A DNA stretch of 24,231 nt from IMG/VR virus record IMGVR_UViG_3300024346_000501, positions 1-24,231 of that record; one strand, 5' to 3'. Within the stretch, counting starts at the first letter, position 1. Every line of letters begins with the position of its first letter. Made by a program: the position numbers and the translations under genes. The stretch comes from a virus. Shown in pieces: positions 721 to 23,159 of this stretch. The notes under the pieces were generated by a model. It was not told where the DNA came from, did not search any database, and was given only the letters and a program-made list of their open reading frames with translations.

Positions 721-995
721 TACTTAGTTCTGTAGTAGTCTTTTGGCGTAGCAAACGATTTGTAAATCTTAAGGCCCGCTACGGCTTTAACCATGGTTAC
801 GAACAAATCTTGGATGAATACAATTACATCAAACATAGTTTGATTTCTCTGAATGTGTGTAGATACAGATTTGAAAAACAGATCGGTAGAATAGTCACGT
901 CCCTCGTTTAGCTTACCATCGTTAGCGTGCTTAGCAAGATCGTACTTCTTACCAAGTCTGTATTTGTATAACCCTTTATATAATTCGTCAGCCAT
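720..995 (-). CDS. Small unknown protein in the baseplate wedge operon
   Basis: This 91-residue protein is not recognised. It is basic and aromatic-rich at its N-terminus (MADELYKGLYKYRLGKKYD). It has a hydrophobic stretch at about residues 53-76 (FDVIVFIQDLFVTMVKAVAG) that reads more like an amphipathic helix than a certain membrane segment, and it ends YYRTK. Its start overlaps the gp6-like stop as TAATG, and its own stop overlaps the next start in the same way. It is therefore locked between two baseplate genes and is probably made in step with them. A small virion or assembly component is the natural guess, but nothing in the sequence proves this. Confidence 0.7.
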   Translation of the reverse strand: MADELYKGLYKYRLGKKYDLAKHANDGKLNEGRDYSTDLFFKSVSTHIQRNQTMFDVIVFIQDLFVTMVKAVAGLKIYKSFATPKDYYRTK

Positions 996-2824
996 TATAG
1001 TGCTTTTCTATTTGCAGATTGAATTTTAGTATAAACCGATCTTGGAATTGGCTTAGAGAAGCTGATCGATAACGCAGCTGCTTCACCGATCTTAACTGCA
1101 TCAGTAATTAGTGAATTACTTCTATCAACCCAACCGCCTCTAAACATTGCTACCTCTTCTTTACCCAACACGATATCACCGAATTCATCCAGACCCGTTA
1201 CAACTTGTCTAACGTCCACTGGAATACCGGATGCCGGTTCGAAAGTGACAGTATTTGATGTTACTGTCTTTTTGAAGAACATGATGCGATTTTTACCGTT
1301 ACCGACGTCTTCAAGAACCGGAGTTTGAGGCGTGATAGTAGTTTGAGTCACCGTATAAGAACCAGTTCTTAAAGCGTCTTGTTCATTCTTAGACATGAAC
1401 TGTACGTTAACCGAATCGACTCCATCGACGCCCTCTAATAGAGCCACGATGTCTGATTTTGGCAATCTGTCTCTTCTAGTGATTGAGAACAGATATTCTG
1501 AAATCTTAGCTCTAATTTTGTTCATCAATTGCACTTCGTCAAAACCTTCAAAGTGACGAACCCAAACGTTCATTGCATAAAGTTTTTCTTTAGGCTCTAC
1601 GAATGATACTTCAGTCGTAACCATCTGTTGACCCGAAAGTTCAATGGCTTCTCTAATACCTTCAAGCTCGCTTTGCATAAAGAAGAACTCTTCCTTAGGC
1701 ACTGAGAAGTAATCATGGTTTGAGCTTAATTTAGACTTAACATCAGGCAACAAGAACAAGTATATCACATTGTCATCGTCCAAGTACTGATCATCAGTCA
1801 AGTTGTATGCATCGATGTAAGAGAACATGTTGTAACGCGCCAGGAAGTGCTCATAGTTCTCTGGTGTTGCCAACACAAATGACTTAGACATCAACGGTGC
1901 AATCAGTTTAGTGAACTCCAATGACTCCGGATTAGCACCCATTTTAGGGGCAGCAGTTACTCTGATTTGCAACAAATTGTTTAGATCGTATTCGTTACCG
2001 AAAGCATCGTAAGCTGGATCAACAAACTTGAATGTCAAATCTTTAGCATCACCCAGATTACCAGCTGAACCCTTAGTTTTAATGTACTCTACGGAAATGA
2101 TTGAACCCAAAGTTGGCATCATACCGAAATTGCCATTACCAAAAAATAGGTCTAGACCTCCCGAAACACCGGTCTTAACAATCACACCCTTAGTGTCAGC
2201 CTGCATATCGTAAAGGGAATCGTAGATTCTCCAAGTTTCACCGTTGACAGAAACAGAAACTCTATCGTGTGCAGTAGAGCCGTTGGTTTGAATATTGAAT
2301 GTTTGGAAAGGATCGCCGGTACCAGTTAAAGTTTGTGTTTGAGTCTCACCCTGAACAATCGGAAACTTAATGTAAGCTCTTTCGTTCTTTAGAATCGGCG
2401 TAATATCGTTTGAAGATCTTAGCAAATAAATCAAGTTGTTGTTATTGCTTCTGATCTGATTATTTTGTCTGATGTATAAAGCATCGCCTTGGATGTCGTC
2501 TTGCATACCAGGCTTCCAAGAGACTTCTATCTCGCCAAGTGCCGAGAAACCCCTAGTTGGATCGTGACCTGTAAGTCTAGCCAAGCCGTAAACTGACTCA
2601 GGTTGCTGAGCAGTCATAATGTTTTGCTCTACTGTTGAATCTTCCAAGTATAAAAGAATAAGCTGCGTCATTTCTGATGCAACCTTAACGAGCTGTGCGA
2701 ATGGAGACGCTGAAGTAAACAAAGACTCGGCCCGACCATAAACCCTGCTCAAGTACGTTCTAGCATCTTGTTGGATTTCACTAGCCTTGATCCTAGCGGT
2801 ATTGATAAAATTAAATTCAGCCAT
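995..2824 (-). CDS. Baseplate wedge protein, gp6 / baseplate J-like
   Basis: This 609-residue protein looks like the T4 gp6/baseplate J family, which forms the ring holding the wedges together around the hub. Visible hallmarks are an N-terminal helical part ending in SVYGLARLTGHDPTRGFSA (about residues 75-93), where baseplate J proteins have a similar 'A..tG..p..g.pA.G' transition. A strand-rich middle contains FFGNGNFGMMPTLGSIISVEY. A long region then resembles the J-type sequence preceding the fold-back domain (SLEFTKLIAPLMSKSFVLATPENYEHFLARYN). A later segment, IRAKISEYLFSITRRDRLPKSDIVALLEGVDGVDSV, matches the common closing motif of the family. It lies directly downstream of the gp25 gene, as is common in myophages. 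The length is close to T4 gp6 (about 660). Confidence 0.85.
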   Translation of the reverse strand: MAEFNFINTARIKASEIQQDARTYLSRVYGRAESLFTSASPFAQLVKVASEMTQLILLYLEDSTVEQNIMTAQQPESVYGLARLTGHDPTRGFSALGEIEVSWKPGMQDDIQGDALYIRQNNQIRSNNNNLIYLLRSSNDITPILKNERAYIKFPIVQGETQTQTLTGTGDPFQTFNIQTNGSTAHDRVSVSVNGETWRIYDSLYDMQADTKGVIVKTGVSGGLDLFFGNGNFGMMPTLGSIISVEYIKTKGSAGNLGDAKDLTFKFVDPAYDAFGNEYDLNNLLQIRVTAAPKMGANPESLEFTKLIAPLMSKSFVLATPENYEHFLARYNMFSYIDAYNLTDDQYLDDDNVIYLFLLPDVKSKLSSNHDYFSVPKEEFFFMQSELEGIREAIELSGQQMVTTEVSFVEPKEKLYAMNVWVRHFEGFDEVQLMNKIRAKISEYLFSITRRDRLPKSDIVALLEGVDGVDSVNVQFMSKNEQDALRTGSYTVTQTTITPQTPVLEDVGNGKNRIMFFKKTVTSNTVTFEPASGIPVDVRQVVTGLDEFGDIVLGKEEVAMFRGGWVDRSNSLITDAVKIGEAAALSISFSKPIPRSVYTKIQSANRKAL

Positions 2825-2837
2825 TTGCCACGTCTTC

Positions 2838-3194
2838 TTAATTTATGTAAACACCCACTTGATATTTGCTATCAATCACGATGTCAATTTGTGCAATGTC
2901 TCTAACAGTTCCTTTGTAAAAAGCAACCGAAACATTGGTATTATATTTTTTAGCTAATGGTACAAATAGATCAATCTGTTTTTCTAGTTCAGACAGTATT
3001 GAGCCCTCGTTATAGTTCAACGTATAGATTAGATGCTCTAAATTAGCACCAAAACCAGGTTCTCCAAGCACTTCTCCCTTGTTAGTAAACATAACTGTTT
3101 CCAGTTGTGTAATCAACATCGCGATTTCACTCTCAGAATGAATCGATGTAGGATCAAAGTTTGGGTCTCCAGCCGCCTTTACGTAGAATTCCAT
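2838..3194 (-). CDS. Baseplate wedge subunit gp25 (GPW/gp25 family)
   Basis: At 118 residues it has the family's usual size. The diagnostic core is present: FTNKGEVLGEPGFGANL at about residues 36-52, matching the conserved 'T.KGER...P.FG..L' signature in which the E-P pair is important for sheath/baseplate contact. Here the usual Arg after E is replaced in the GEVLGEP context. A helix follows (ILSELEKQIDLFVPLAKKY), then two antiparallel strands. gp25 seeds sheath polymerisation on the baseplate wedge. The gene is followed 13 bases later by the gp6-like gene and is preceded by a TGATATATA box only nine bases before its ATG. Confidence 0.88.
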   Translation of the reverse strand: MEFYVKAAGDPNFDPTSIHSESEIAMLITQLETVMFTNKGEVLGEPGFGANLEHLIYTLNYNEGSILSELEKQIDLFVPLAKKYNTNVSVAFYKGTVRDIAQIDIVIDSKYQVGVYIN

Positions 3195-3203
3195 TGCTAT
3201 GTT

Positions 3204-3212
3204 TATATATCA
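3204..3212 (-). promoter_or_regulatory. Late-promoter-like box TGATATATA upstream of gp25
   Basis: The minus strand reads TGATATATA in the 20-base gap between the neck-like gene and gp25. The same nonamer occurs in other late gaps here (13301, 17129, 20322). It resembles the T4 late -10 element TATAAATA. The ATG follows nine bases after the box, so a transcript starting there would have almost no leader. Confidence 0.5.
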
Positions 3213-3214
3213 TT

Positions 3215-4051
3215 TTAAGAATGGAACCACCAGTCGGTGCCTTCGTCATTCTTGATTTCTTCAACTACTTTATCCAATTCTTCTTGACCCATTGATTGAA
3301 TAATATCGGCATTAACAGTAACACCGCCTGGTAAGTTGTAACCAAAGATAGCAAGCTTTTGGCCAAGAGAAATCATGACCTTAGCTGCAACATATCTAAA
3401 GAATATCTCGTCACCGAACAGGGCGCAATCAGGAATAGTCTCGTAGATCTCTAAAATAGTATCCCTGTATGGCGTTTGACCAGTGAACTTAAGTTCGTGT
3501 GTCTGTTGTGAGTAATGGAACGACAGTGGATTTTCTAGGATCTGGCGAGCCATATCAAAGAATGATTCGTTAATTACGTAATACTGCAAGTTCTCTGCAC
3601 CGGATACAATGCTTGAACCGCCAGAGTGTAGTGAACCAAAAAGAGCTCTTTGAATATCAAAATCACCAGTTGTAAAGGTAATGGACGAACCTGCACCGTA
3701 ACGTGAACCGACTTCAGCAACAGCGTACACCGAATATACTTCGTTACCCCCAGTTGCTGGATTCTCACCCGGTAAAGTTAAGGCCCTTCTTTGCTTGAAA
3801 TGATCAGTATTAAAGGCCTCCTTTGGAATAACCAAGAAGTTCTCGGTAACAGAATACTCATAACTCTTGTAGAACCATTTTTTGGCTCTTTTAATAATGT
3901 TGTACACCTCAGACCTTGGTAGATTCATAGGAATCATACACGCTCCTGTCACATAACTGCCAATCTCGTCGATAAAATCGTTAAGACAGTTAGGATCATA
4001 CGATGGCGGTGTAGTTAAATCGTTTAGATTGCCTTCAAAAATGTCGCCCAT
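3215..4051 (-). CDS. Probable neck protein, gp13-like
   Basis: This is a 278-residue structural protein. The best clue is the C-terminus: a helix (FFRYVAAKVMISLGQKLAIFG) followed by LPGGVTVN at about 240-247 and a closing acidic helix (QEELDKVVEEIKN). Neck proteins of the gp13 type in T4-like cyanophages, as I remember them, have the same 'GQ...LPGGVT.NG..I...A..EI..LEEE' ending. The N-terminal part (SEVYNIIKRAKKWFYKSYEY, about 47-66) also fits the gp13 pattern of a helix of paired charged and aromatic residues before the first beta region. gp13 sits at the head-tail neck in T4. Finding it between an amidoligase and gp25 rather than beside gp14 is unusual. The assignment is from remembered motifs, not a search. 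Confidence 0.5.
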   Translation of the reverse strand: MGDIFEGNLNDLTTPPSYDPNCLNDFIDEIGSYVTGACMIPMNLPRSEVYNIIKRAKKWFYKSYEYSVTENFLVIPKEAFNTDHFKQRRALTLPGENPATGGNEVYSVYAVAEVGSRYGAGSSITFTTGDFDIQRALFGSLHSGGSSIVSGAENLQYYVINESFFDMARQILENPLSFHYSQQTHELKFTGQTPYRDTILEIYETIPDCALFGDEIFFRYVAAKVMISLGQKLAIFGYNLPGGVTVNADIIQSMGQEELDKVVEEIKNDEGTDWWFHS

Positions 4052-4053
4052 TT

Positions 4054-5346
4054 TTATTGTATTTTATTTGAATTCACAATCTCCGTTCCGTCGAATTGTG
4101 CTGTTTTTTCGCTGTAGTTACCCTCTCTAAAGATACCACCCTTCATTTTACCTTTGAAAATGCTATCTGTGCCAAACACATAACAGTTTTCAGCAGCTAC
4201 ACTAGAGTGTGTGTAACATGATTTGATTTTAGAGTCCTTAACGCTAGATGATTGATACAAGCTGCATCCATCGACATCAGAACCTTCAATCTTACAGCGA
4301 TAAAAATCGCTGTATTTAGCTTCACCTCTAAATTCGCAATCAACGAATTCATAGTTCGACAAACCGTGAGCACCTAGTAGTTTACCATCTGCAACCTGTA
4401 CCTTAGACCTGTCAGTGTCGTAATTAATGTGACCTTCTGTTAAACCACCTTGAGTGATTAACGCAATCACTTGGTATTTAATCTGGTCCCAAAACATATC
4501 TATCGTCTCACCGTGATTTTTTAGATCTAGTGTAAAATTAATGTTTTTGAACCGGTCGAAGTGTCTATGATCTTTATATAGAGCATATATTGGCTTCATT
4601 TTAGCCATAATTCTCCTTAGTTCAAGACGATTTAATTCTGTTAGATCGCTATTTTGACAAGCGTTCCACAATTGAATAAGAAAATTATCCAATAGGTGTA
4701 GAATTGTAGAAGCTTTCTTTTCGTAATCCTTGCCACCAAGATATCTAAATTCCAGATAACCGTCGTTCTGCTTCAAAAAGTTTACACCGTAATACTTAGT
4801 ATCTGGATATTTGAACTGCTGTTTTGAAATGTGATTTTCATCAAAGTTAAACAGTTCGTTTTTAGGCAAAATGTATTTGATGGATTTAGCATAAACTAGA
4901 TCCTTACGCTGTGGAAAGAACTTGTAAACCTGATCCTCTTTGAAGTCCAAGATAAACTTCAAAGTGTTCATATGAGTGATGAAGTTTGAACCTACATATT
5001 TCTTATCAAACGATACATTTAGGTGAATACCGGCTCTATCGGTTGTGTAACCATTGACTTTGATCCATTCTAACATTTTAATGATCGTAAGTCTGGCATC
5101 CGAGTATGGTAAAGCACCAGTTACCATTTCAATCAATCCGGCGCCGCCTGACAAATCAGGTTCCATCTTAAATTCTCTATCAGATGGTACAAAATCTGAG
5201 TGTGCTTTTTCCTCAACGCGAATCTTTCTACCTAAAACTTCACCTACCATTTTAGCAGTTGTCTCGACATCGTAATTTGAATAAAACTCAAACTCAATAC
5301 CGCAGAAAGCCTTTAAGAGAATGTCCTTGTTTGCCTCGTTTAACAT
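4054..5346 (-). CDS. Amidoligase-like enzyme (GCS/GS fold) fused to a pentapeptide-type beta-helix
   Basis: This 430-residue protein has two parts. Residues 1 to about 300 carry the marks of the carboxylate-amine ligase superfamily related to glutamate-cysteine ligase (amidoligase_2 type): GIEFEF at 16-21 (the G-x-E-x-E metal/ATP strand), MEPDLSGGAGLIEMVTG at 61-77 (the D-x-S...E-[IM]-V motif), RAGIHLNVSFD at 104-114 (the G-x-H-[LV]-[NH]-V motif) and YLEFRYLGG at 197-205 (the E-[FY]-R motif). The core acidic, His and Arg positions are kept, so it is probably active. Residues 332-430 (CEFRGEAKYSDFYRCKIEGS and onward) form short Cys/Ser-rich repeats of about five residues typical of right-handed beta-helices. 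Such enzymes join amino groups to carboxylates on peptides or small molecules. Its place in a virion operon suggests a structural protein as target, which is inference. Confidence 0.72.
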   Translation of the reverse strand: MLNEANKDILLKAFCGIEFEFYSNYDVETTAKMVGEVLGRKIRVEEKAHSDFVPSDREFKMEPDLSGGAGLIEMVTGALPYSDARLTIIKMLEWIKVNGYTTDRAGIHLNVSFDKKYVGSNFITHMNTLKFILDFKEDQVYKFFPQRKDLVYAKSIKYILPKNELFNFDENHISKQQFKYPDTKYYGVNFLKQNDGYLEFRYLGGKDYEKKASTILHLLDNFLIQLWNACQNSDLTELNRLELRRIMAKMKPIYALYKDHRHFDRFKNINFTLDLKNHGETIDMFWDQIKYQVIALITQGGLTEGHINYDTDRSKVQVADGKLLGAHGLSNYEFVDCEFRGEAKYSDFYRCKIEGSDVDGCSLYQSSSVKDSKIKSCYTHSSVAAENCYVFGTDSIFKGKMKGGIFREGNYSEKTAQFDGTEIVNSNKIQ

Positions 5347-5450: not shown

Positions 5451-6809
5451 TTATGCTCCGAATACCTTCAAGAATACCTTTTTGGTCTCTTCGTCAACTT
5501 TAGTAACTTCAACCGCAATCTCTTGACCCTTGGTAAAAGTGTCTTTCAGTGATGTGCCTTCTGGGAACTCAGAGATGTGAGCCATGCCAACCACTGAACC
5601 GTGAACTGCGATGAACAAACCATAGTCCTTGATAGATCTAATGCTTGCGTTTTCAACCAACATCGGTACTTTTAGATTTTTAGTGAATTCTTCCCATGAG
5701 TTATCAACTCTGGCTTCAACCTTTTCCTTTTGGGTCAAAATGATCTTCTCATTAGTAACAATCTCTTTAATCTTAAATGTAACTTCTTCTCCAGGAGCGA
5801 TCTGTTGTGCCTTGTGGCGTTCAAACAAATCAGGACCTAGATCGTTAATGTGAATCATACCGGTCAAACATGTATTAAACTCTACGAATACACCGTATTT
5901 GGCAGTGCCAGTTACGTTACCCGTGATATCTTGATCCATGTTTTCCTGTAGATTAGCAATCTCGTTAGGAATCATCGCTTGTAAGTATTTTCTGTGCGAA
6001 ACTACAATCGTACCTTTAGCAGCTGAGAATGAATCAGGAACAACGTACATTTTAGTACCAACAATAGATGTGAAATCGTGCAATTTATTAATGCCTGCAA
6101 GTGAACCTGGCATAAAACAGTTGATGCCTTGTACACTAACAATGTAACCACCACCTGGGATCATTTCCTTAACAGTGCCTAAGTATGCTGTACCGCCATC
6201 TTCTGCCGCAACTCTAAGCTCAGCGAATATACGTTGTTTTGTACCTTCCGAAATGGAAGCAACTGCGTACTCTTTAGCATCAGTTTTATCGCTTAAAACC
6301 TTAACTGAAACTTCATCACCTGGGCGCAAATCAGCTAACACGTCTTTGTCTTCTCTAGATAGATCGATGTACAGCATTTCACGATAGCCGATGTCAACTG
6401 TAGCCCATCTTTCCGACATGGTGTAGATCTTACCAGTTTCGACGCCACCGACTGTCAATTCTGCCATAGATTCCTGGAACTGTACATCAGATAACATATT
6501 GTACATTTCTTGGGCATAAGGTTCGTGAGAATACACGATTTCCTTGTGACTTGCAGTCTTGATTCGAGTGTTGACCCTAAGTTTAGTGTTGTGATAAGAT
6601 TCGTAACCGTCCCAATCGAATTCTCCGTTTGATAGGATGAAATCGTTAGAATCTTTGTTCGAATCGTCGTCAGCTTCTAAATCCATGACAGTGTCTAGGA
6701 TTTCTTCTTGCTGCTCGACAGCGATGCTTTGTTTTTTGCTTAGTCGCTGTCTTTTTTGATTTTTTTGACCGTTTCCTTTAGTAGAATCGTTCTCTTGATT
6801 GGAGTTCAT
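5451..6809 (-). CDS. Multi-S1-domain RNA-binding protein, ribosomal protein S1-like
   Basis: This 452-residue protein has a low-complexity charged N-terminus (about 1-60, rich in Gln, Lys and Asp) followed by about four S1/OB repeats, near 119-185, 203-275, 293-362 and 380-450. The last two are clearest: GNVTGTAKYGVFVEFNTCLTGMIHINDLG and ASIRSIKDYGLFIAVHGSVVGMAHISEF, each with the S1 signature 'V..i..YG.FV.......G..H.s.l' and closing with ILTQK or VFLKV strands. The first two are divergent (ERWATVDIGYREMLYIDLS; GGGYIVSVQGINCFMPGSL). Cellular S1 brings mRNA to the 30S subunit and commonly has about six repeats, so this is shorter. It sits in its own late unit with a promoter-like box upstream and a terminator downstream. 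A host-translation, mRNA-stability or virion role cannot be distinguished from sequence. Confidence 0.85.
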   Translation of the reverse strand: MNSNQENDSTKGNGQKNQKRQRLSKKQSIAVEQQEEILDTVMDLEADDDSNKDSNDFILSNGEFDWDGYESYHNTKLRVNTRIKTASHKEIVYSHEPYAQEMYNMLSDVQFQESMAELTVGGVETGKIYTMSERWATVDIGYREMLYIDLSREDKDVLADLRPGDEVSVKVLSDKTDAKEYAVASISEGTKQRIFAELRVAAEDGGTAYLGTVKEMIPGGGYIVSVQGINCFMPGSLAGINKLHDFTSIVGTKMYVVPDSFSAAKGTIVVSHRKYLQAMIPNEIANLQENMDQDITGNVTGTAKYGVFVEFNTCLTGMIHINDLGPDLFERHKAQQIAPGEEVTFKIKEIVTNEKIILTQKEKVEARVDNSWEEFTKNLKVPMLVENASIRSIKDYGLFIAVHGSVVGMAHISEFPEGTSLKDTFTKGQEIAVEVTKVDEETKKVFLKVFGA

Positions 6810-7302: not shown

Positions 7303-8043
7303 TTAATTGACTCTTACGTTATCTGATTTAGTGGAAGCAACGTTTGCTTTTGCAGGTGTGTTTAACGTATTGACAGTTGCAGTTACGGTTGCTGATTGGG
7401 CTTGTAACGCAGCTGCAGCCGCAACAAATGGTGCTGCGCTAAAAATAGGCAATGGTGCACCAGCAGCGGCTGCCGTCGTAAACGCCGTAGCGAATGTCGC
7501 AATTTGGTTTTGAATAGCCTTAATTTCGCCAATGATATCGGTTAACACTCGTGCATTTTTATCACCCAAAACTGCAGGCTCTTCTGCACCCCCAGAACCT
7601 CCTACAAGATGTAGAATATCTGGTACATTAATTTCACCGTCACCCTCAGTAGTAATCAACTTCAAACCTTCATCCGCAGCCCAATAGAATTGCATTCTAT
7701 CAGGATCGTAAAAGAATGAAACAACTTTAAGGGCTCCGTTTGCAGCCACCTTGGCCGCCATATCTTTGTCCTGAAGCACTTGAAACCAATACATTGGTTG
7801 ATATAGGTTTCCATTATCGAAGCGCACCGAAACTATGTCACCGACCTTTGGGACAGCGAATTGACCGTGCATGTTGTTAGTACATGGTGCAGCCCATGGT
7901 AGATCCACATCGGCAATCAGATCGAACTTTCCGAACACGCGAATGCGGCAACGTCCCATGTTTTGAGGATCCTCGTTGCTAACGATTTCCCCAAGCCAGT
8001 GAGAGTCCCTAAGGTTGTCCTTAAATAGTTCTCTTTGATTCAT
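7303..8043 (-). CDS. Baseplate spike/hub protein, gp5-type OB fold without a lysozyme domain
   Basis: The 246-residue protein opens with the gp5/VgrG OB-fold pattern: SHWLGEIVSNEDPQNMGRCRIRVFG (about 14-38), then DLPWAAPCTNNMHGQFAVPKVGDIVSVRF and NGNLYQPMYWFQ. T4 gp5 has the same N-terminal barrel, then a lysozyme domain and a triple beta-helix. Here neither follows. Instead there is a strand-rich middle (about 100-155), a VLGDKNARVLTDIIGEIKAI helix like those in spike proteins of many myophages, and an Ala-rich tail (AAPFVAAAAALQAQ). The protein presumably caps the hub and guides membrane puncture, with peptidoglycan hydrolysis done elsewhere. It shares a stop/start base with the upstream gene (TAATG). 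Confidence 0.8.
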   Translation of the reverse strand: MNQRELFKDNLRDSHWLGEIVSNEDPQNMGRCRIRVFGKFDLIADVDLPWAAPCTNNMHGQFAVPKVGDIVSVRFDNGNLYQPMYWFQVLQDKDMAAKVAANGALKVVSFFYDPDRMQFYWAADEGLKLITTEGDGEINVPDILHLVGGSGGAEEPAVLGDKNARVLTDIIGEIKAIQNQIATFATAFTTAAAAGAPLPIFSAAPFVAAAAALQAQSATVTATVNTLNTPAKANVASTKSDNVRVN

Positions 8044-15757: not shown

Positions 15758-16282
15758 TTATATTTGAATGTGAATAATTTCAATGCCCGCTTGCTTCAAT
15801 AGATCCTGACCCGACATATCACGATAGTCTTCAGTGAAGAATACTCTTTTGATACCCGATTGAATAATCATTTTAGAGCATTCAAAACACGGTGTTGTGG
15901 TTGTATATAGATCGGCTCCATCGGAGCTTAGGGTTGACTTAGAAATCTTTGTAATAGCATTTGATTCTGCGTGCAGAACTTCTCTACGGGTTTCGTAAAA
16001 GGTCTTACCACAAACTCCATTTGGGTTGCAGTAGTAGCCGTCGTCCTCTAGTGTTTTAATGACATCTGGCGCATTTGCATATCCTCCTTCAACTTCTACA
16101 ATCTCGACATGTTCGTGCTCACACGAGTTGTCAAAACCACCTGGAGTACCATTGTAACCGAAAGAAACGATTTGATGATCTTTAACGATCACGCATCCAA
16201 CCTTACGGCGCTGGGCATAACTAAGCTCAGCCACGTCGTAAGCGATCTTCATGTAAACACTATCAATTGATATTCTGGGCAT
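15758..16282 (-). CDS. dCMP deaminase
   Basis: The 174-residue protein has the full zinc-deaminase signature: HAESNAI at 104-110 (zinc-binding His and catalytic Glu) and PCFECSKMI at 131-139 (two zinc Cys). It also has the N-terminal strand RRKVGCVIVKDHQIVSFGYNGTPGG typical of the dCMP/ComE group, where GYNG(T/F)P binds nucleotide. An extended insert between 50 and 100, with Cys54, His56, His58, Cys85 and Cys91, is in the place where T4-type and Bacillus enzymes bind a second zinc. It turns dCMP into dUMP for thymidylate synthesis. No thymidylate synthase is visible here. It starts right after a terminator and leads a chain of small genes. Confidence 0.93.
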   Translation of the reverse strand: MPRISIDSVYMKIAYDVAELSYAQRRKVGCVIVKDHQIVSFGYNGTPGGFDNSCEHEHVEIVEVEGGYANAPDVIKTLEDDGYYCNPNGVCGKTFYETRREVLHAESNAITKISKSTLSSDGADLYTTTTPCFECSKMIIQSGIKRVFFTEDYRDMSGQDLLKQAGIEIIHIQI

Positions 16283-16346: not shown

Positions 16347-17099
16347 TTAGATTGTCTCGCCTTCAGCGTTCCAAGCTTCCATCATCTCGTCGATCTTCTT
16401 AGAGTAAGCCTCTTTTAGACCGTTACAAGCTGATTCGTATTGCTCTTGTGTAATATCTTCTTTGCAAGATTTTAGAGCCTCAGTAGCCATAGAAGCGTGA
16501 AGAGCACAGTTTTCTTTTAGGTAAGATTCGATAGTGTGAGTGTCGTGTGCGTCTTCTTCCCAAACCTTAGCTTCTTCCTTTACTCTTTCGTAAAGTTCTT
16601 TAACCATCTCTTCGACAGTTGCTTTAGCTTCAGCTTCTTCAGACTCTTCGTCCTCATCTTCGTCTTCGTCCTCTCCGTCGGTGTCTTCAGCGTCCTCTTC
16701 GGATTTATCACCCTCAGCTTCTGCGTCATCACCCCCTTCCTCTTCGTCGTCTGCAATTTGGGTTTCGACCTCGTCGTCCTCCTCTTTTTCTTCGGCTTCA
16801 GCTACTTCAACAGCACCTTCTTCGCCCTCGTCTTCAGGCATCTCTTGATCGCCTTCTTCCGTTTCTTTGTCTTCTTCTGAGTGTACCTCTTCAGCATCAG
16901 ATTCCATCTCTTCAGCTTCTTCACCAGCACCTTCGTCCTCGGACTTCTTTGGTGCTTCAGCTTCAGGTTGATCGTCAGAAATTACTTCTTCACCACCTTC
17001 AGCCTCTTCAGGCTCACCCATAGCAACGATATCCTTCTCGATCTCTTCAGCAGAGTCCATAGAAGCGATATACTCTTCAAATGTTTTTAATTTTGCCAT
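16347..17099 (-). CDS. Very acidic protein with capsid-targeting-like leader, prohead core candidate
   Basis: Well over a third of this 250-residue protein is Glu or Asp, with runs such as GEDEDEDEDEESEEAEA and few hydrophobic residues between about 25 and 160. The N-terminus MAKLKTFEEYIASMD matches the leader of neighbouring genes (M-K-x-F-x-T-F-E-x-[FY]). The C-terminal 90 residues are helical (EEMVKELYERVKEEAKVWEED; ESACNGLKEAYSKKIDEMMEAW). T4 builds its prohead core from acidic small proteins such as gp67, cleaved later by gp21, so a core or packaged role is the best inference. It is transcribed from a TGATATATA box 29 bases upstream and stops at a strong terminator, i.e. it forms its own late unit. 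No enzyme motif is seen. Confidence 0.72.
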   Translation of the reverse strand: MAKLKTFEEYIASMDSAEEIEKDIVAMGEPEEAEGGEEVISDDQPEAEAPKKSEDEGAGEEAEEMESDAEEVHSEEDKETEEGDQEMPEDEGEEGAVEVAEAEEKEEDDEVETQIADDEEEGGDDAEAEGDKSEEDAEDTDGEDEDEDEDEESEEAEAKATVEEMVKELYERVKEEAKVWEEDAHDTHTIESYLKENCALHASMATEALKSCKEDITQEQYESACNGLKEAYSKKIDEMMEAWNAEGETI

Positions 17100-17128
17100 G
17101 ATGTGTATGGTTTTTATTTGTTATTAAG

Positions 17129-17137
17129 TATATATCA
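17129..17137 (-). promoter_or_regulatory. Late-promoter-like box TGATATATA upstream of the acidic core gene
   Basis: The minus strand reads TGATATATA, 29 bases before the ATG at 17099, in the 51-base gap behind the 104-residue leader protein. It is an exact copy of the boxes at 3204, 13301 and 20322. Confidence 0.6.
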
Positions 17138-17150
17138 GCACATTTTATGC

Positions 17151-17465
17151 TTAATAGTCTCTGTGACCACCATTGATTTTTTCAACAGCTTCGTACTCTC
17201 TTCTAGAATAGCTTGAAGAATCGCCCGCTATTGAAACTCTTTTACCAAGATCACCTAGTTTATAAAGTTCATCTGAAATTGCATCGCTAATTCGGTCGGG
17301 TGCATCCATGCCCACTAGAACTTCAATATCATTCCATTTAGGAACAAACATTACAGTTGCAGGTTGATTTGCTTTCTTTACTGCAGCAACAACTTTATCA
17401 AAGTCTTTCTTGTCCACTTTGTACGATTCGTTAATAAACGATTCAAATGTTTTGAAGTGTTTCAT
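17151..17465 (-). CDS. Small protein with capsid-targeting-like leader
   Basis: The 104-residue protein opens MKHFKTFESFINES, nearly identical to the internal leader of the preceding gene (MKHFKTFESFVNEG). In T4, internal proteins carry an N-terminal leader (IPIII starts MKTYQEFIAEA) that directs them into the prohead and is cut after an [I/L]-x-E site; here I-N-E then S fits that rule. The remaining part has a compact alpha/beta pattern: DFDKVVAAVKKA, ATVMFVPKWNDIEVLVG, DRISDAISDELYKLG and KRVSIAGDSSSYSRREYEAV. It lies one base after the 514-residue gene. It may be ejected or stay in the head; the role after cleavage is unknown. Confidence 0.75.
   Translation of the reverse strand: MKHFKTFESFINESYKVDKKDFDKVVAAVKKANQPATVMFVPKWNDIEVLVGMDAPDRISDAISDELYKLGDLGKRVSIAGDSSSYSRREYEAVEKINGGHRDY
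17431..17465 (-). repeat. Leader-coding repeat, copy 2 (start of the 104-residue gene)
   Basis: This 35-base stretch encodes the MKHFKTFESFIN part of the leader. It matches the stretch at 17663-17697 at 32 of 35 positions, which points to a fairly recent duplication. Confidence 0.8.
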
Positions 17466-17466
17466 G

Positions 17467-19011
17467 TTAGATTTTATTCTTTTTCATCCACTTACCAACT
17501 AGGTCAACTACCATATTAAAAAGCGGGTTGCGAGTATCTCCTTCAAAGTAATCTTTCACCAAGTAATATGCACCATCAACCTCTTCGTCGTTGTTAATCA
17601 TATCTTGAATCTGACCAGTGATTTGATCTGCAATATTCTCAGCCTCTTTGTGGCTGCCTTCGTTAACAAATGATTCAAATGTTTTAAAGTGTTTCATATC
17701 CTTTGATTCAAAATTGATTTTGAAGTTTTTGTCAATCTTCTTTACAAGCTTCATTAACTCTGTAAATGGTAGACCTGTTTCTTTCATTGCGTCTTGCATC
17801 GTCATTGCACCCGATGCAATCTGTTTAGCATAAGACATCGGCGAATACTTATTGATGTTGTAAGCTTCGTTTTGGATCTCATCCATTTTAGCCATTGCCC
17901 AATCAACTCCTTCAGTGCCTCCCCAGATCAACCATGCAATATAGCCTCTGTCCTTCCAAGGTGTGTCCTTAAATTCAGCAGCAACTTCAGAATTCTTTCT
18001 GTGTCTGTTAAACTGAGCCATTCTAGAAACTACGTCAGCCGATAGCGATTCACCTTTAGCCAATTGGTGAGCTCTAGCCCAACCAACCGCAGTACCACCA
18101 GTAACTTCTTCACGACCGTACTTCTCTTTCCACTCAATAGCCTTCTTAGCGTTTGCCTTAGCGGCCGCTGGATAGTCATTGTAAGTTTCTTCAGCCTCAT
18201 TAACAGATTCGTTAGTTTGACCTTTAACTTCTCTGGCAACATCGACATCAGCTCCACCCCAAGTACCTTTTTCTTTCTTGATGAAACCGTTAACTCTAGC
18301 ATAACCCCATTGCTCTTGTGACATGCCTTCTCTGTGAGTAGTATTCCACGCATCCATACCTCTTCTCATTACGATACGAAGTAGGGCAATATCAATACCG
18401 CTTTCTTCAGCTTTAGTCTTAAGCGCCTTTTCGATGTCTGGGTTATCAATTGGACCTCTGTCGCCTTTAGCCTTCTCTTCGTTTAATTCCAACGATTCGT
18501 TAGCTGCTTTGTACATTTGCTTTTCAAAGTCCTTAGCACCTTTAGCGTCTTTTCTGTACAGCTTAGCCATTACTTTGGCAACTGCACCATCAGCATGACG
18601 CATTAGATGTTGCGTTGAAGCCATTCTAGATTCTAGTTTGACTTTGCTTACATACTTATCAAGGGCATCGTTTTCACGGCCGATATCATCCATTTGATTA
18701 ATGATCTCATCCTCAAGTTCTTGTAGGATATCAATCTTAGTCTGATGGACGTCGTTATCGTTATTGTTGTAACCTCTTGATGGTTTGTAATCGTATGACT
18801 TATCTTCAAGCTCGTTTTCAAGCTCTTCGATTGGATCGCCGTCAAGTTTTAGGATACCAATCTCGATTCTAGTTTGAGTTAGCTTAGCAGCCAACTTGTC
18901 TAGCTCTCTTTTCTTCTTAGGATTACTGAACAGTCTACCTAAAAAGCTAAACAGCCCCTCATCAACTGAGGCGCTGTTTTGAAAGCTTTCAAATGTTTCG
19001 AAGTATTTCAT
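17467..19011 (-). CDS. Multidomain prohead/internal protein with leader and second embedded leader
   Basis: The 514-residue protein starts [12 protein letters not shown] with a likely cut after SVDE (residues 15-18). Residues 45-150 are a charged coiled-coil region. Then come two conserved phage modules: KALKTKAEESGIDIALLRIV to HREGMSQEQWGYARVNGFIKK with GTWGGADVD, and YPAAAKANAKKAIEWKEKYG to GTAVGWARAHQLAKGE, RMAQFNRHRKN and WGG. I recall both as uncharacterised domains in other tailed-phage head or portal-region proteins, but cannot give a Pfam name. After these comes a 40-residue linker and then an internal MKHFKTFESFVNEG (ATG at 17697) with a 63-residue tail. That tail could also be made as a separate 76-residue protein. 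The start overlaps the upstream stop as TAATG. Confidence 0.7.
   Translation of the reverse strand: MKYFETFESFQNSASVDEGLFSFLGRLFSNPKKKRELDKLAAKLTQTRIEIGILKLDGDPIEELENELEDKSYDYKPSRGYNNNDNDVHQTKIDILQELEDEIINQMDDIGRENDALDKYVSKVKLESRMASTQHLMRHADGAVAKVMAKLYRKDAKGAKDFEKQMYKAANESLELNEEKAKGDRGPIDNPDIEKALKTKAEESGIDIALLRIVMRRGMDAWNTTHREGMSQEQWGYARVNGFIKKEKGTWGGADVDVAREVKGQTNESVNEAEETYNDYPAAAKANAKKAIEWKEKYGREEVTGGTAVGWARAHQLAKGESLSADVVSRMAQFNRHRKNSEVAAEFKDTPWKDRGYIAWLIWGGTEGVDWAMAKMDEIQNEAYNINKYSPMSYAKQIASGAMTMQDAMKETGLPFTELMKLVKKIDKNFKINFESKDMKHFKTFESFVNEGSHKEAENIADQITGQIQDMINNDEEVDGAYYLVKDYFEGDTRNPLFNMVVDLVGKWMKKNKI
17663..17697 (-). repeat. Leader-coding repeat, copy 1 (inside the 514-residue frame)
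   Basis: This 35-base stretch codes the internal MKHFKTFESFVN and differs from the copy at 17431-17465 at only three bases. It lies in frame inside the 514-residue gene and begins with an ATG at 17697, so it could be a start codon of its own. Confidence 0.8.
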
Positions 19012-20288
19012 TACTTATAAGGAGCGTAAACTGTTTCCAGCCAATTTCTTAGTTCTTTTGTATCTTCTAGTTTGAAATCAGCAATAACTTCCTTCATAAA
19101 TTCTTTGAAGTTTCTTGCGTTTTGAGCAATGATATCAATCTCTGACATACCACCTTCTAGTAGTGATTCATTGGCTGCTAATTCAGCATTTCTGTCTTTG
19201 CCTTTAACTGCTTTATTCAATTCTTTTTCAAGCTCTTTCTTTTTAGCAGTTAGGGCCTTTAGCTTTTCTAGGTATGATTCTTTTTCAGAAGCTTCAGCTG
19301 ATTTCCAGTCTTTAACAACTTCTTTCATTTCAGTTGAAACTTCATTCCATTCCTTCTGAATTGCGTTGATTGAACGACCAGCACCTGGTTTACGACCTCT
19401 TCTAGCTTCATCAAGCTCATTTGATTCGTTGATTTCAACTGGAACAAGAACCGTCATGTCTCTTGCATCGTCATACTCCATCATGTACTTTTGACCATTG
19501 ATCTCAGTCTTGTAATCTTTGTGAGCTTTATCCCACGCTTTTTTAGTTACAGACTTAACGTTTGATAATGATTCTCTTAGCTTATACTTATCAATAAGTT
19601 TTGCTCTTCTTTCGATTTCAGCCTTAGACATGTATATGTTATCTTCGGGACCCCATTCACCATGACCTCCCAACTTAGCGATCTCTTTGTCGATCTTGTT
19701 TAGCATCTTACCGTAACGATCTGCAATTGGACCGCCTTCTGGTTCTGCTTCTTGCTCCATGTCTCTCATGATTTGAGCTCTTTCAGCCTGTAGTTTAGCA
19801 AGCTTTCTAGCGTTAGCTGATGACATTTCTTTTTTAGCTGGTTCCTTTGGAGCATTTTTAGCAGCGGCTCTTTTAGCCATATCAGCTCTCATCTTCAACA
19901 GAACTGGGTCGTTAAGGTCTCTGGCTTCGCCCACTGACCAATCCATTGCAATAACATTATCCATTTCTTTTTTCAAAGAAGAACGATAGTATTGCTCGAG
20001 ACCTTCTACACCTGATTTAGCTTGACCGTCAATGATCTGATCAGCAGCTTTACGACCCATCTTAGAGTTTAGAACCTTAAGAGCTTCTAAATCTGTTAGC
20101 TTGTAAGACTTCATCAAGCCTTCGATAGCTTTATAGAAATAGTTTTTAGCGTTGCGATCGTCGTCTTCAAGTGTACCCCAAAAACCGTATATTTGATTGA
20201 TATCATCTTCGCTGAAAGTAACCTTCGCAGCTTCGTCGATTTGATTTTTGGCATCTAGCCACTCGTTTAGATTTTGAACCTTTCTCAT
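19011..20288 (-). CDS. Prohead-core/internal protein candidate with several gp21-type cleavage sites
   Basis: The 425-residue protein opens [20 protein letters not shown], a leader of the same style as its neighbours but divergent, with I-D-E then A at 17-20. Five more sites fit the T4 prohead-protease rule [I/L]-x-E followed by a small residue: LRES, INES, LDEA and LLEG among them. The body is charged and helical ([48 protein letters not shown]), like a scaffold. One small module, [27 protein letters not shown], then [10 protein letters not shown], recurs in other phage head proteins as I recall. It is the first gene after a terminator and a TGATATATA box, so it leads a late unit. A scaffold or packaged role is inference; the protease itself is not in this window. 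Confidence 0.62.
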
Positions 20289-20868: not shown

Positions 20869-21786
20869 TTATACAGTAAGCGCAATGAATTGTTTCATGT
20901 ACGCTTGGGTTGCCAATTCCTTGGCCTTTGCTTCGATCTCAACATCTAAGTCCAAACCATAATCATCGATGAATTCATATATGTAATCGGCATGGGCTCG
21001 CTTATTGGTCTGCGAAGCGTCTTCGTGAATTTGCTTACACGAAGAGAAGTGCACCAGCTGTTTGGCGTTTCGCCAAGTTGTAGCTGCTAGCTTAAGTGCT
21101 TCTTCCTGTGTTAATTCTCCAGGGTGACACCAGTGGTGATGGTAATCGAACGTGATTGGAATGCCTATTTTAGCATAGACGGTACCGTGAAGATCTTCAA
21201 CTGCGTACTGTTTTTCCTTATCGTCGTTCTCAACTACTAATCGAGTGCGAGCTGCTGGATTCAAAAGCCAGAAGTTAGCACAGAAGCGCGTCATGGCGTC
21301 TTCTTTGTTTGGAGCTGTGGTGTTAACGTGGATGTTAATAGCTGCGTGAGGTGTTCTGGGCAGTCCCATTAAATCCATGATTTCACCATGTTGATTAAGA
21401 TCCTTAATAGTCTTTTTCACCACCTTTTCGTTGGTTGAAGCCAAGACTGAGAATGGACCTGGATGAAAGGTCAAGCGCTGTCCGTATTTCTGAGCAAGCT
21501 GGCCAGCTTGAGCCAAAAGATCGACAATCTCGTCGTAGTTTGGCAGATCTTTGAATTCGTATTCGCTCATCCATGGGAACATATCACTTGACATTCGGTA
21601 TAGCTTAATACCATTCTGCTCGTTCCATTCAATGATTTTAATCATATCTCGAATGTTAGCAACAGCCAATTGGCCGGCATATTCAATGCCTTTCGCATTG
21701 TATGTTTTCTTGATCATGCCTCGACCGATGGTAACACCTTCCTTGGCCAAAGTCATATTGATACAGCAATATCCGTAATTAGTCAT
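20869..21786 (-). CDS. UV-damage endonuclease, UvdE/UvsE type
   Basis: The 305-residue protein has the whole UVDE pattern: YGYCCINMTL at the N-terminus, then FHPG at 107-110, INIHVN at 150-155, VENDD at 185-189, FDYHHHWCHP at 213-222, FSSC at 247-250 and RAHADYI at 263-269, with DVEIEAK near the end. These form the metal-binding ring of His, Glu and Asp in the TIM-barrel fold. The enzyme nicks DNA 5' to pyrimidine dimers and 6-4 photoproducts, without light. T4 uses DenV, an unrelated enzyme, for the same problem. The gene begins eight bases inside the end of the preceding gene. A phage exposed to sunlight would benefit; that is inference. Confidence 0.92.
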   Translation of the reverse strand: MTNYGYCCINMTLAKEGVTIGRGMIKKTYNAKGIEYAGQLAVANIRDMIKIIEWNEQNGIKLYRMSSDMFPWMSEYEFKDLPNYDEIVDLLAQAGQLAQKYGQRLTFHPGPFSVLASTNEKVVKKTIKDLNQHGEIMDLMGLPRTPHAAINIHVNTTAPNKEDAMTRFCANFWLLNPAARTRLVVENDDKEKQYAVEDLHGTVYAKIGIPITFDYHHHWCHPGELTQEEALKLAATTWRNAKQLVHFSSCKQIHEDASQTNKRAHADYIYEFIDDYGLDLDVEIEAKAKELATQAYMKQFIALTV

Positions 21787-22706: not shown

Positions 22707-23159
22707 TTACGCTACTTTTTCAAGGTATTCTAGAACAGTAACCCAGTTTGGAAACTCTTCGGTTCCAAAATGAATGTGCTTACCTTTGAATTCACCGGCT
22801 CCATTCTTGGTACGATCGTCAATCAAGAAGTCACCCATTAGCAAGTCCTTACGGTGAGAAAGCATCAAGCGCTTGTGAGCAAATTTACCGAGATTACGTT
22901 GAACCCAAATGCGTTTGTCCATCCAAGCTTGAGGATTACTCCACGGTGCAGTAGATAGAAAGAACACTTCGTGTTTTTCGGCTAGTTTTTTGATGGCTTC
23001 AATGGCACCTTCAATGGCTGGAGGATCGAGGAACAAACCTTTGTCAACACTAGTTAGCATACCAATCTTTTCAAGGCCTTGCTTACCGTGACGGGCTTCA
23101 ACGTGTTTTTCCAAATCGACCATCACTCCATCGAGGTCTACGTAAATAATCTTACTCAT
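22707..23159 (-). CDS. 5'(3')-deoxyribonucleotidase (HAD superfamily, NT5C type)
   Basis: The 150-residue protein has the HAD motifs in order: motif I YVDLDGVMVDLEKHV (nucleophile Asp8 and acid/base Asp10), motif II FFLSTAPWSNPQAW (Ser69-Thr70), motif III Lys104 in SHRKDLLMGD, and motif IV FLIDDRTKNGAGEF (Asp114-Asp115). The STAPW and LIDDRTKNG strings are typical of the NT5C family. It is nearer to this deoxyribonucleotidase group than to general HAD phosphatases. It removes the 5'-phosphate from dNMPs, and could rebalance pools together with the dCMP deaminase encoded about 6.4 kb downstream. The length is near that of other phage members. It lies four bases before the next start. Confidence 0.88.
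   Translation of the reverse strand: MSKIIYVDLDGVMVDLEKHVEARHGKQGLEKIGMLTSVDKGLFLDPPAIEGAIEAIKKLAEKHEVFFLSTAPWSNPQAWMDKRIWVQRNLGKFAHKRLMLSHRKDLLMGDFLIDDRTKNGAGEFKGKHIHFGTEEFPNWVTVLEYLEKVA

Follow-up and report, generated by a model that had tools for sequence, protein, structure and literature searches.

A predicted amidoligase fused to a pentapeptide-type β-helix is encoded among neck and baseplate genes of huge phages

The window analysed here is the whole stretch of 24,231 nucleotides of the IMG/VR virus record IMGVR_UViG_3300024346_000501. On its minus strand, an open reading frame at 4054..5346 (read 5346→4054, with an ATG start and its stop codon at 4054-4056) encodes a protein of 430 amino acids, which is supported by homologues and by a predicted structure. 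The initial annotation had listed this reading frame without its strand; the frame itself proved real. The protein consists of a putative catalytic domain with a GS/gamma-GCS-like fold in residues 1-300 (4447..5346, minus) and a C-terminal pentapeptide-type β-helix in residues 301-430 (4057..4446, minus). When the gene was compared with a 91%-identical relative (L009), dN/dS was 0.038, and by this estimate the gene is under purifying selection.

The ligase gene lies in an operon with virion genes, all on the minus strand. After a gap of 2 nt, the next gene downstream (3215..4051) encodes a T4 gp13-like neck protein, which was recognised in an hmmsearch against T4 gp13 structures (2.9e-9) and by the connector family PHROG_211 (1.5e-10), and whose relative in Tenacibaculum PTm1 is annotated as 'neck protein'. 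Since the AlphaFold model of this protein is only fair (pLDDT 70), its identity is taken from the profiles. Further downstream are a T4 gp25-like baseplate wedge protein (2838..3194; profile against T4 gp25 1.7e-4, best gp25-like chain 1.1e-4, PHROG_43 in 8/11 members) and a gp6-type baseplate wedge protein (995..2824; PHROG_219 5.9e-30). The upstream gene (5451..6809) encodes a ribosomal-protein-S1-like S1-domain protein (Pfam S1 8e-19; NCBIfam 30S ribosomal protein S1 3e-40, below the equivalog cut-off), and a gp5-type baseplate OB protein belongs to the same operon (7303..8043; Phage_base_V 1.6e-8). An operon shared with gp13-like neck, gp25 and gp6 genes had been proposed before, and the profile matches to all three confirm it.

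Elsewhere in the window, several open reading frames at 16347-20288 (minus) share a similar N-terminus, which we take to recall the capsid-targeting sequence found in internal head proteins of T4; similar N-terminal starts occur in ligase neighbours of the phage group with the largest genomes (L002, L003). The 250-aa protein at 16347-17099 (minus) contains 41% Asp+Glu and may be a protein of the core or the head interior. It was considered as a substrate of the ligase and set aside, as nothing links the two beyond the shared strand. The window also encodes a UvdE UV-endonuclease (20869-21786, minus; Pfam 2.9e-56), a dCMP deaminase (15758-16282) and an NT5C-type nucleotidase (22707-23159). At a related locus, the homologue of window protein p505 (L003 3526-5136, minus) matches Peptidase_M15_4 at 5e-5, just below the curated cut-off, and may be a cell-wall peptidase in the tail hub.

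For the catalytic domain, we aligned 75 diverse homologues, which are 28-82% identical to the window protein. The initial annotation had assigned four ligase motifs to the N-terminal 300 residues, and all four were found where it had placed them. On the minus strand, the first acidic pair lies in G16-x-E18-x-E20 (5287..5301; G16-I-E18-F-E20 in the window protein), which is followed by EPD64xS66GG...E73xxTG in residues 62-77 (5116..5163; E62-P-D64-L-S66-G-G68...E73-M-V-T-G), GIH108xN110xS112F (5008..5031; G-I-H108-L-N-V-S) and LE199FR201YxGG (4732..4755; L-E199-F-R201). G16, E18, E20, D64, S66, G68, E73, S112, K157, N189, E199 and R201 are invariant in 75/75 homologues, as are Y202 and G204, and position 108 is His in 69/75 and Gln in 6/75. 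The Glu, His and Arg positions had been named as decisive for the assignment, and the whole metal/ATP residue set (Glu pair, Asp, Glu, His, Glu, Arg) is kept in 75/75 save H108. The same series GxExE / D / E / H / EFR occurs in the same order in E. coli GshA (E27/E29, D60, E67, H150, E328, R330), where the metal/ATP roles of these residues are known from gamma-GCS structures. An hhalign comparison of the ligase family with the single GshA sequence gave nothing, and the comparison instead relied on the order of the motifs and on Foldseek. The N-terminal 210 residues form the best-conserved part of the protein, with a mean top-residue frequency of 0.62 vs 0.49 in the helix.

The AlphaFold model of the ligase protein was predicted with a pLDDT of 93.1 and a pTM of 0.86. 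In Foldseek searches against the PDB, this model matched glutamine synthetase (8fbp, 5e-5, probability 1.0), the bifunctional GshF (8e-4) and gamma-GCS (1v4g, 2.6e-3); the global TM-scores were low (0.25-0.32), the query being the whole two-domain chain. Against viral models, dozens of proteins named amidoligase were found, down to 7e-14. The prediction therefore shows the GS/gamma-GCS-type fold that the initial annotation had expected. The Pfam profile Amidoligase_2 (PF12224) gave no match to the window protein by itself; at E<=0.1 it matched 31/75 members, with 3.8e-10 as the best value. Its curated cut-off was exceeded by L028, a syntenic orthologue with 51-52% identity (27.5 vs 22 bits). 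Considering the motifs and the model together, we assign the protein with high confidence to the ATP-dependent carboxylate-amine ligases of the GS/gamma-GCS superfamily, within the Amidoligase_2 group, and it is very probably a working enzyme. PADLOC and NCBIfam did not match the ligase, so that no link to a defence system is indicated.

In the same model, the β-helix starts near residue 302 and extends over ~128 residues to ~429. Foldseek identified this tail as a right-handed quadrilateral β-helix similar to AlbG (2xt4, probability 1.0), QnrB1 (2xtw) and EfsQnr (2w7z), and Pentapeptide_4 matched 44/75 members (best 1.7e-7), below the 38-bit cut-off in the members inspected. Near the end of the helix, the motif GKMKGGIFREG (4120..4152, minus) is conserved, and its R407 is invariant. 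The β-helix of the initial annotation thus stood as to its fold, in which AlphaFold, Foldseek and Pentapeptide_4 agree, and its length was corrected from the last 100 residues to ~128. The union of a ligase and a pentapeptide-type β-helix in one protein is, as far as homology and modelling tell, a new architecture; our literature search found no paper on a phage protein that combines an amidoligase with pentapeptide repeats.

The neighbourhood of the ligase gene is conserved. The gp13-like gene lies directly downstream on the same strand in 109/169 distinct relatives, followed by gp25 and gp6, and the S1-like gene lies upstream of the ligase in 104/169 distinct loci. Because 107 of those 109 have a gap of -14 to +25 nt between the ligase and neck genes, with overlaps of 8-14 nt in 10, the two genes are probably translationally coupled. 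When we searched with a neck profile, the ligase was present in 80/80 of the best loci, a count that describes the clade and not all relatives, as the profile was built from ligase-bearing phages. Within its clade, the synteny of the ligase with the neck gene is strict. As the operon is shared with virion genes, the ligase is presumably produced along with the proteins of neck and baseplate, and hence late; operon membership speaks for co-expression, not for a substrate.

A tblastn search against annotated phages found full-length relatives only in the metagenomic huge-phage records LR756500-504 and LR745206 (462-735 kb; 32-43% identity). Agrobacterium phage Atu_ph07 and Salicola phage SCTP-2 matched over the catalytic domain. 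A scan of IMG/VR gave at least 547 confirmed relatives, and one with a more distant profile gave 326; the family is common in huge-phage contigs. Among the GTDB genome contigs scanned with the ligase family, none of 93 pattern matches was a relative, so the family looks viral. Judged by these homologues, the ligase is a core gene of a big huge-phage clade that includes genomes of 462-735 kb. A DNA-level search of the operon among phages gave no match. The neck and gp6 genes (window 995-4051) are nearest, outside the huge-phage records, to those of Prevotella Lak phages and of other Bacteroidota phages, and the sequences hint at a Bacteroidota host for the window phage. In distant phages with similar neck and gp6 genes (Prevotella Lak, Tenacibaculum PTm1, Sphingomonas PAU, Flavobacterium MaF61 and Chryseobacterium MA9V-1), no ligase was detectable.

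In a second group, which has the largest genomes, the neck-ligase operon is broken and the ligase gene is kept. Each of the 10 records checked, which were picked for carrying the ligase, has one full-length copy. A homologue of the window tail-region gene p668 lies <=5 genes from the ligase in 49/74 loci, often divergently, and the ligase is often on the opposite strand to neck or tail genes. These phages keep no S1-like gene close to the ligase. In 45/74 of these loci (e.g. L003 9829-11817), a gene near the ligase, mostly the next or second one downstream, encodes a DHH-family phosphoesterase-like protein, recognised by a weak Pfam match.

From these data, we infer the catalysis, the target, the role of the β-helix and a virion-directed timing as follows. 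Because of the superfamily, the reaction would pass through an acyl phosphate: Mg-ATP would phosphorylate a carboxylate in the β-funnel site (E18/E20/D64/E73/H108/E199/R201), and an amine would attack the acyl phosphate to yield an amide. By analogy with gamma-GCS, the carboxylate may be a Glu/Asp side chain or a C-terminus. The C-terminal β-helix may dock the enzyme on its target or mediate oligomerisation, and the target would be a neck, tail or baseplate virion protein that undergoes amidation, aminoacylation/glutamylation or cross-linking while the virion is assembled. The most likely reading, which we hold tentatively, is that in the course of assembly the ligase makes an amide bond on a protein of the virion neck or tail. 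Neck and tail proteins are favoured since the ligase gene is probably coupled to the neck gene and is often near tail genes when the operon breaks. The frequent opposite orientation of the ligase gene to neck and tail genes in the second group counts against a virion-protein target. The ligase may itself be a virion component; the alternatives are an assembly-time enzyme that is not packaged and a late enzyme acting on the host. If the ligase is truly absent from Lak, PTm1, PAU, MaF61 and MA9V-1, then not every phage with this type of tail requires the modification. A broader proposal appears rather unlikely to us, namely that throughout the lineage a dedicated protein ligase with a β-helix docking arm uses ATP to modify or cross-link neck/tail proteins covalently as an integral part of huge-phage assembly.

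The main rival to modification of a virion protein is a ligase that acts late on the host, on peptidoglycan stem peptides, another envelope component or a metabolite, in superinfection exclusion or lysis timing. Such a role has been proposed for the amidoligases of podoviruses, whose cassettes were read as peptidoglycan modification and superinfection exclusion (PMC5498523; PMC10580990). It would fit the gamma-glutamyl cyclotransferase-type (GGACT) proteins that we found in 4/10 huge-phage records, and also the weak Peptidase_M15_4 match of the L003 tail-hub homologue, considering that tails may meet the cell wall enzymatically. However, a GATase_6 partner was found in 0/10 of these records, with the control positive in 14/14, and no ATP-grasp or GATase was present among the window open reading frames scanned. 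A search for COOH-NH2_lig (PF14395), which had no working positive control, was empty. Moreover, the ligase stands alone in a structural operon, whereas the known cassettes lie among replication and metabolism genes. We consider host-directed action somewhat unlikely.

An improbable alternative is that the ligase modifies the adjacent S1-like protein or host ribosomal proteins, as RimK does on S6. The upstream S1-like gene in 104/169 distinct loci favours this, and huge phages are known to encode S1-domain proteins (PMC7162821). The tightest coupling is nevertheless with the neck gene, not with S1, and the second group keeps the ligase without an S1-like gene nearby, which rules out the S1-like protein as an obligate partner. 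It is still harder to credit that the ligase fold is a non-catalytic, enzyme-derived virion scaffold in which the β-helix is the functional part. The gene does lie among virion genes, β-helices are common structural parts, and H108 is replaced by Gln in 6/75, but all acidic and Arg motif residues are invariant and the N-terminal 210 residues are better conserved than the helix. Finally, phages do acquire metabolic genes, and the initial annotation had offered a metabolic enzyme placed by chance as its second reading; this is barely credible and chance placement was rejected, as it is contradicted by the conserved synteny with the neck gene, by a position conserved across ~50% divergence with retention in genomes of >600 kb, and by the lack of a close cellular homologue in GTDB genomes.

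Until now, the amidoligases of phages were interpreted as enzymes that act on the cell wall or on metabolites and belong to early or middle cassettes. The gene of the predicted ligase described here is a core gene in a large clade reaching the biggest known phage genomes, where it is fixed next to the genes for neck and baseplate. With virion proteins as its targets, tail assembly would include an enzyme-driven covalent step; with targets in the host, the ligase would mark a conserved step by which huge phages take over the cell late in infection. Under either reading, a core protein of huge phages that otherwise lacks characterisation gains a specific, testable chemistry.

Compared with known systems, phi32_84 of phiEco32 (Amidoligase_2, PF12224) shares with the window ligase a GS/gamma-GCS-like fold and the series GxExE / D...E / HxH-or-HxN / EFR. 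It belongs to a non-structural cassette, tens of kb from the phiEco32 virion genes, with a RimK-like ligase, a GATase-type (glutamine amidotransferase) protein, a COOH-NH2 ligase and a gamma-glutamyl cyclotransferase, and it has no β-helix, whereas the window ligase is β-helix-fused and lies in a neck/baseplate operon. The window ligase is a member of the amidoligase superfamily and not of the phiEco32/RIO-1-type podovirus cassette. AUZ94978 of Atu_ph07 is similar in its catalytic domain and scores above the PF12224 cut-off, but its gene is among head genes (portal, prohead core), with neighbours unlike those of the window ligase. Both AUZ94978 and Salicola SCTP-2 gp124/gp125 have other N-terminal extensions and no β-helix; in SCTP-2, gp125 and gp124 are two tandem divergent amidoligases (L007 6924-10684). 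The virion proteome of Atu_ph07, a distant relative, comprises 131 proteins (PMC6102473). The paper on huge-phage genomes (PMC7162821) makes no mention of amidoligase. E. coli GshA and glutamine synthetases share the fold (Foldseek) and the metal/ATP motif residues with the window ligase, but they are dedicated small-molecule enzymes, and hhalign with the single GshA gave no significant profile alignment. AlbG, QnrB1, EfsQnr and MfpA have a right-handed β-helix as in the C-terminal 128 residues of the window protein; they stand alone and bind gyrase, whereas the window helix is short, ligase-fused and carries its own conserved GKMxGGIFRxG end. The nearest counterpart in architecture is A0A6J5PQ40, an uncultured Caudovirales phage protein in BFVD named just 'Uncharacterized protein', whose model matches that of the window protein over its full length (TM 0.88) with the same domain arrangement.
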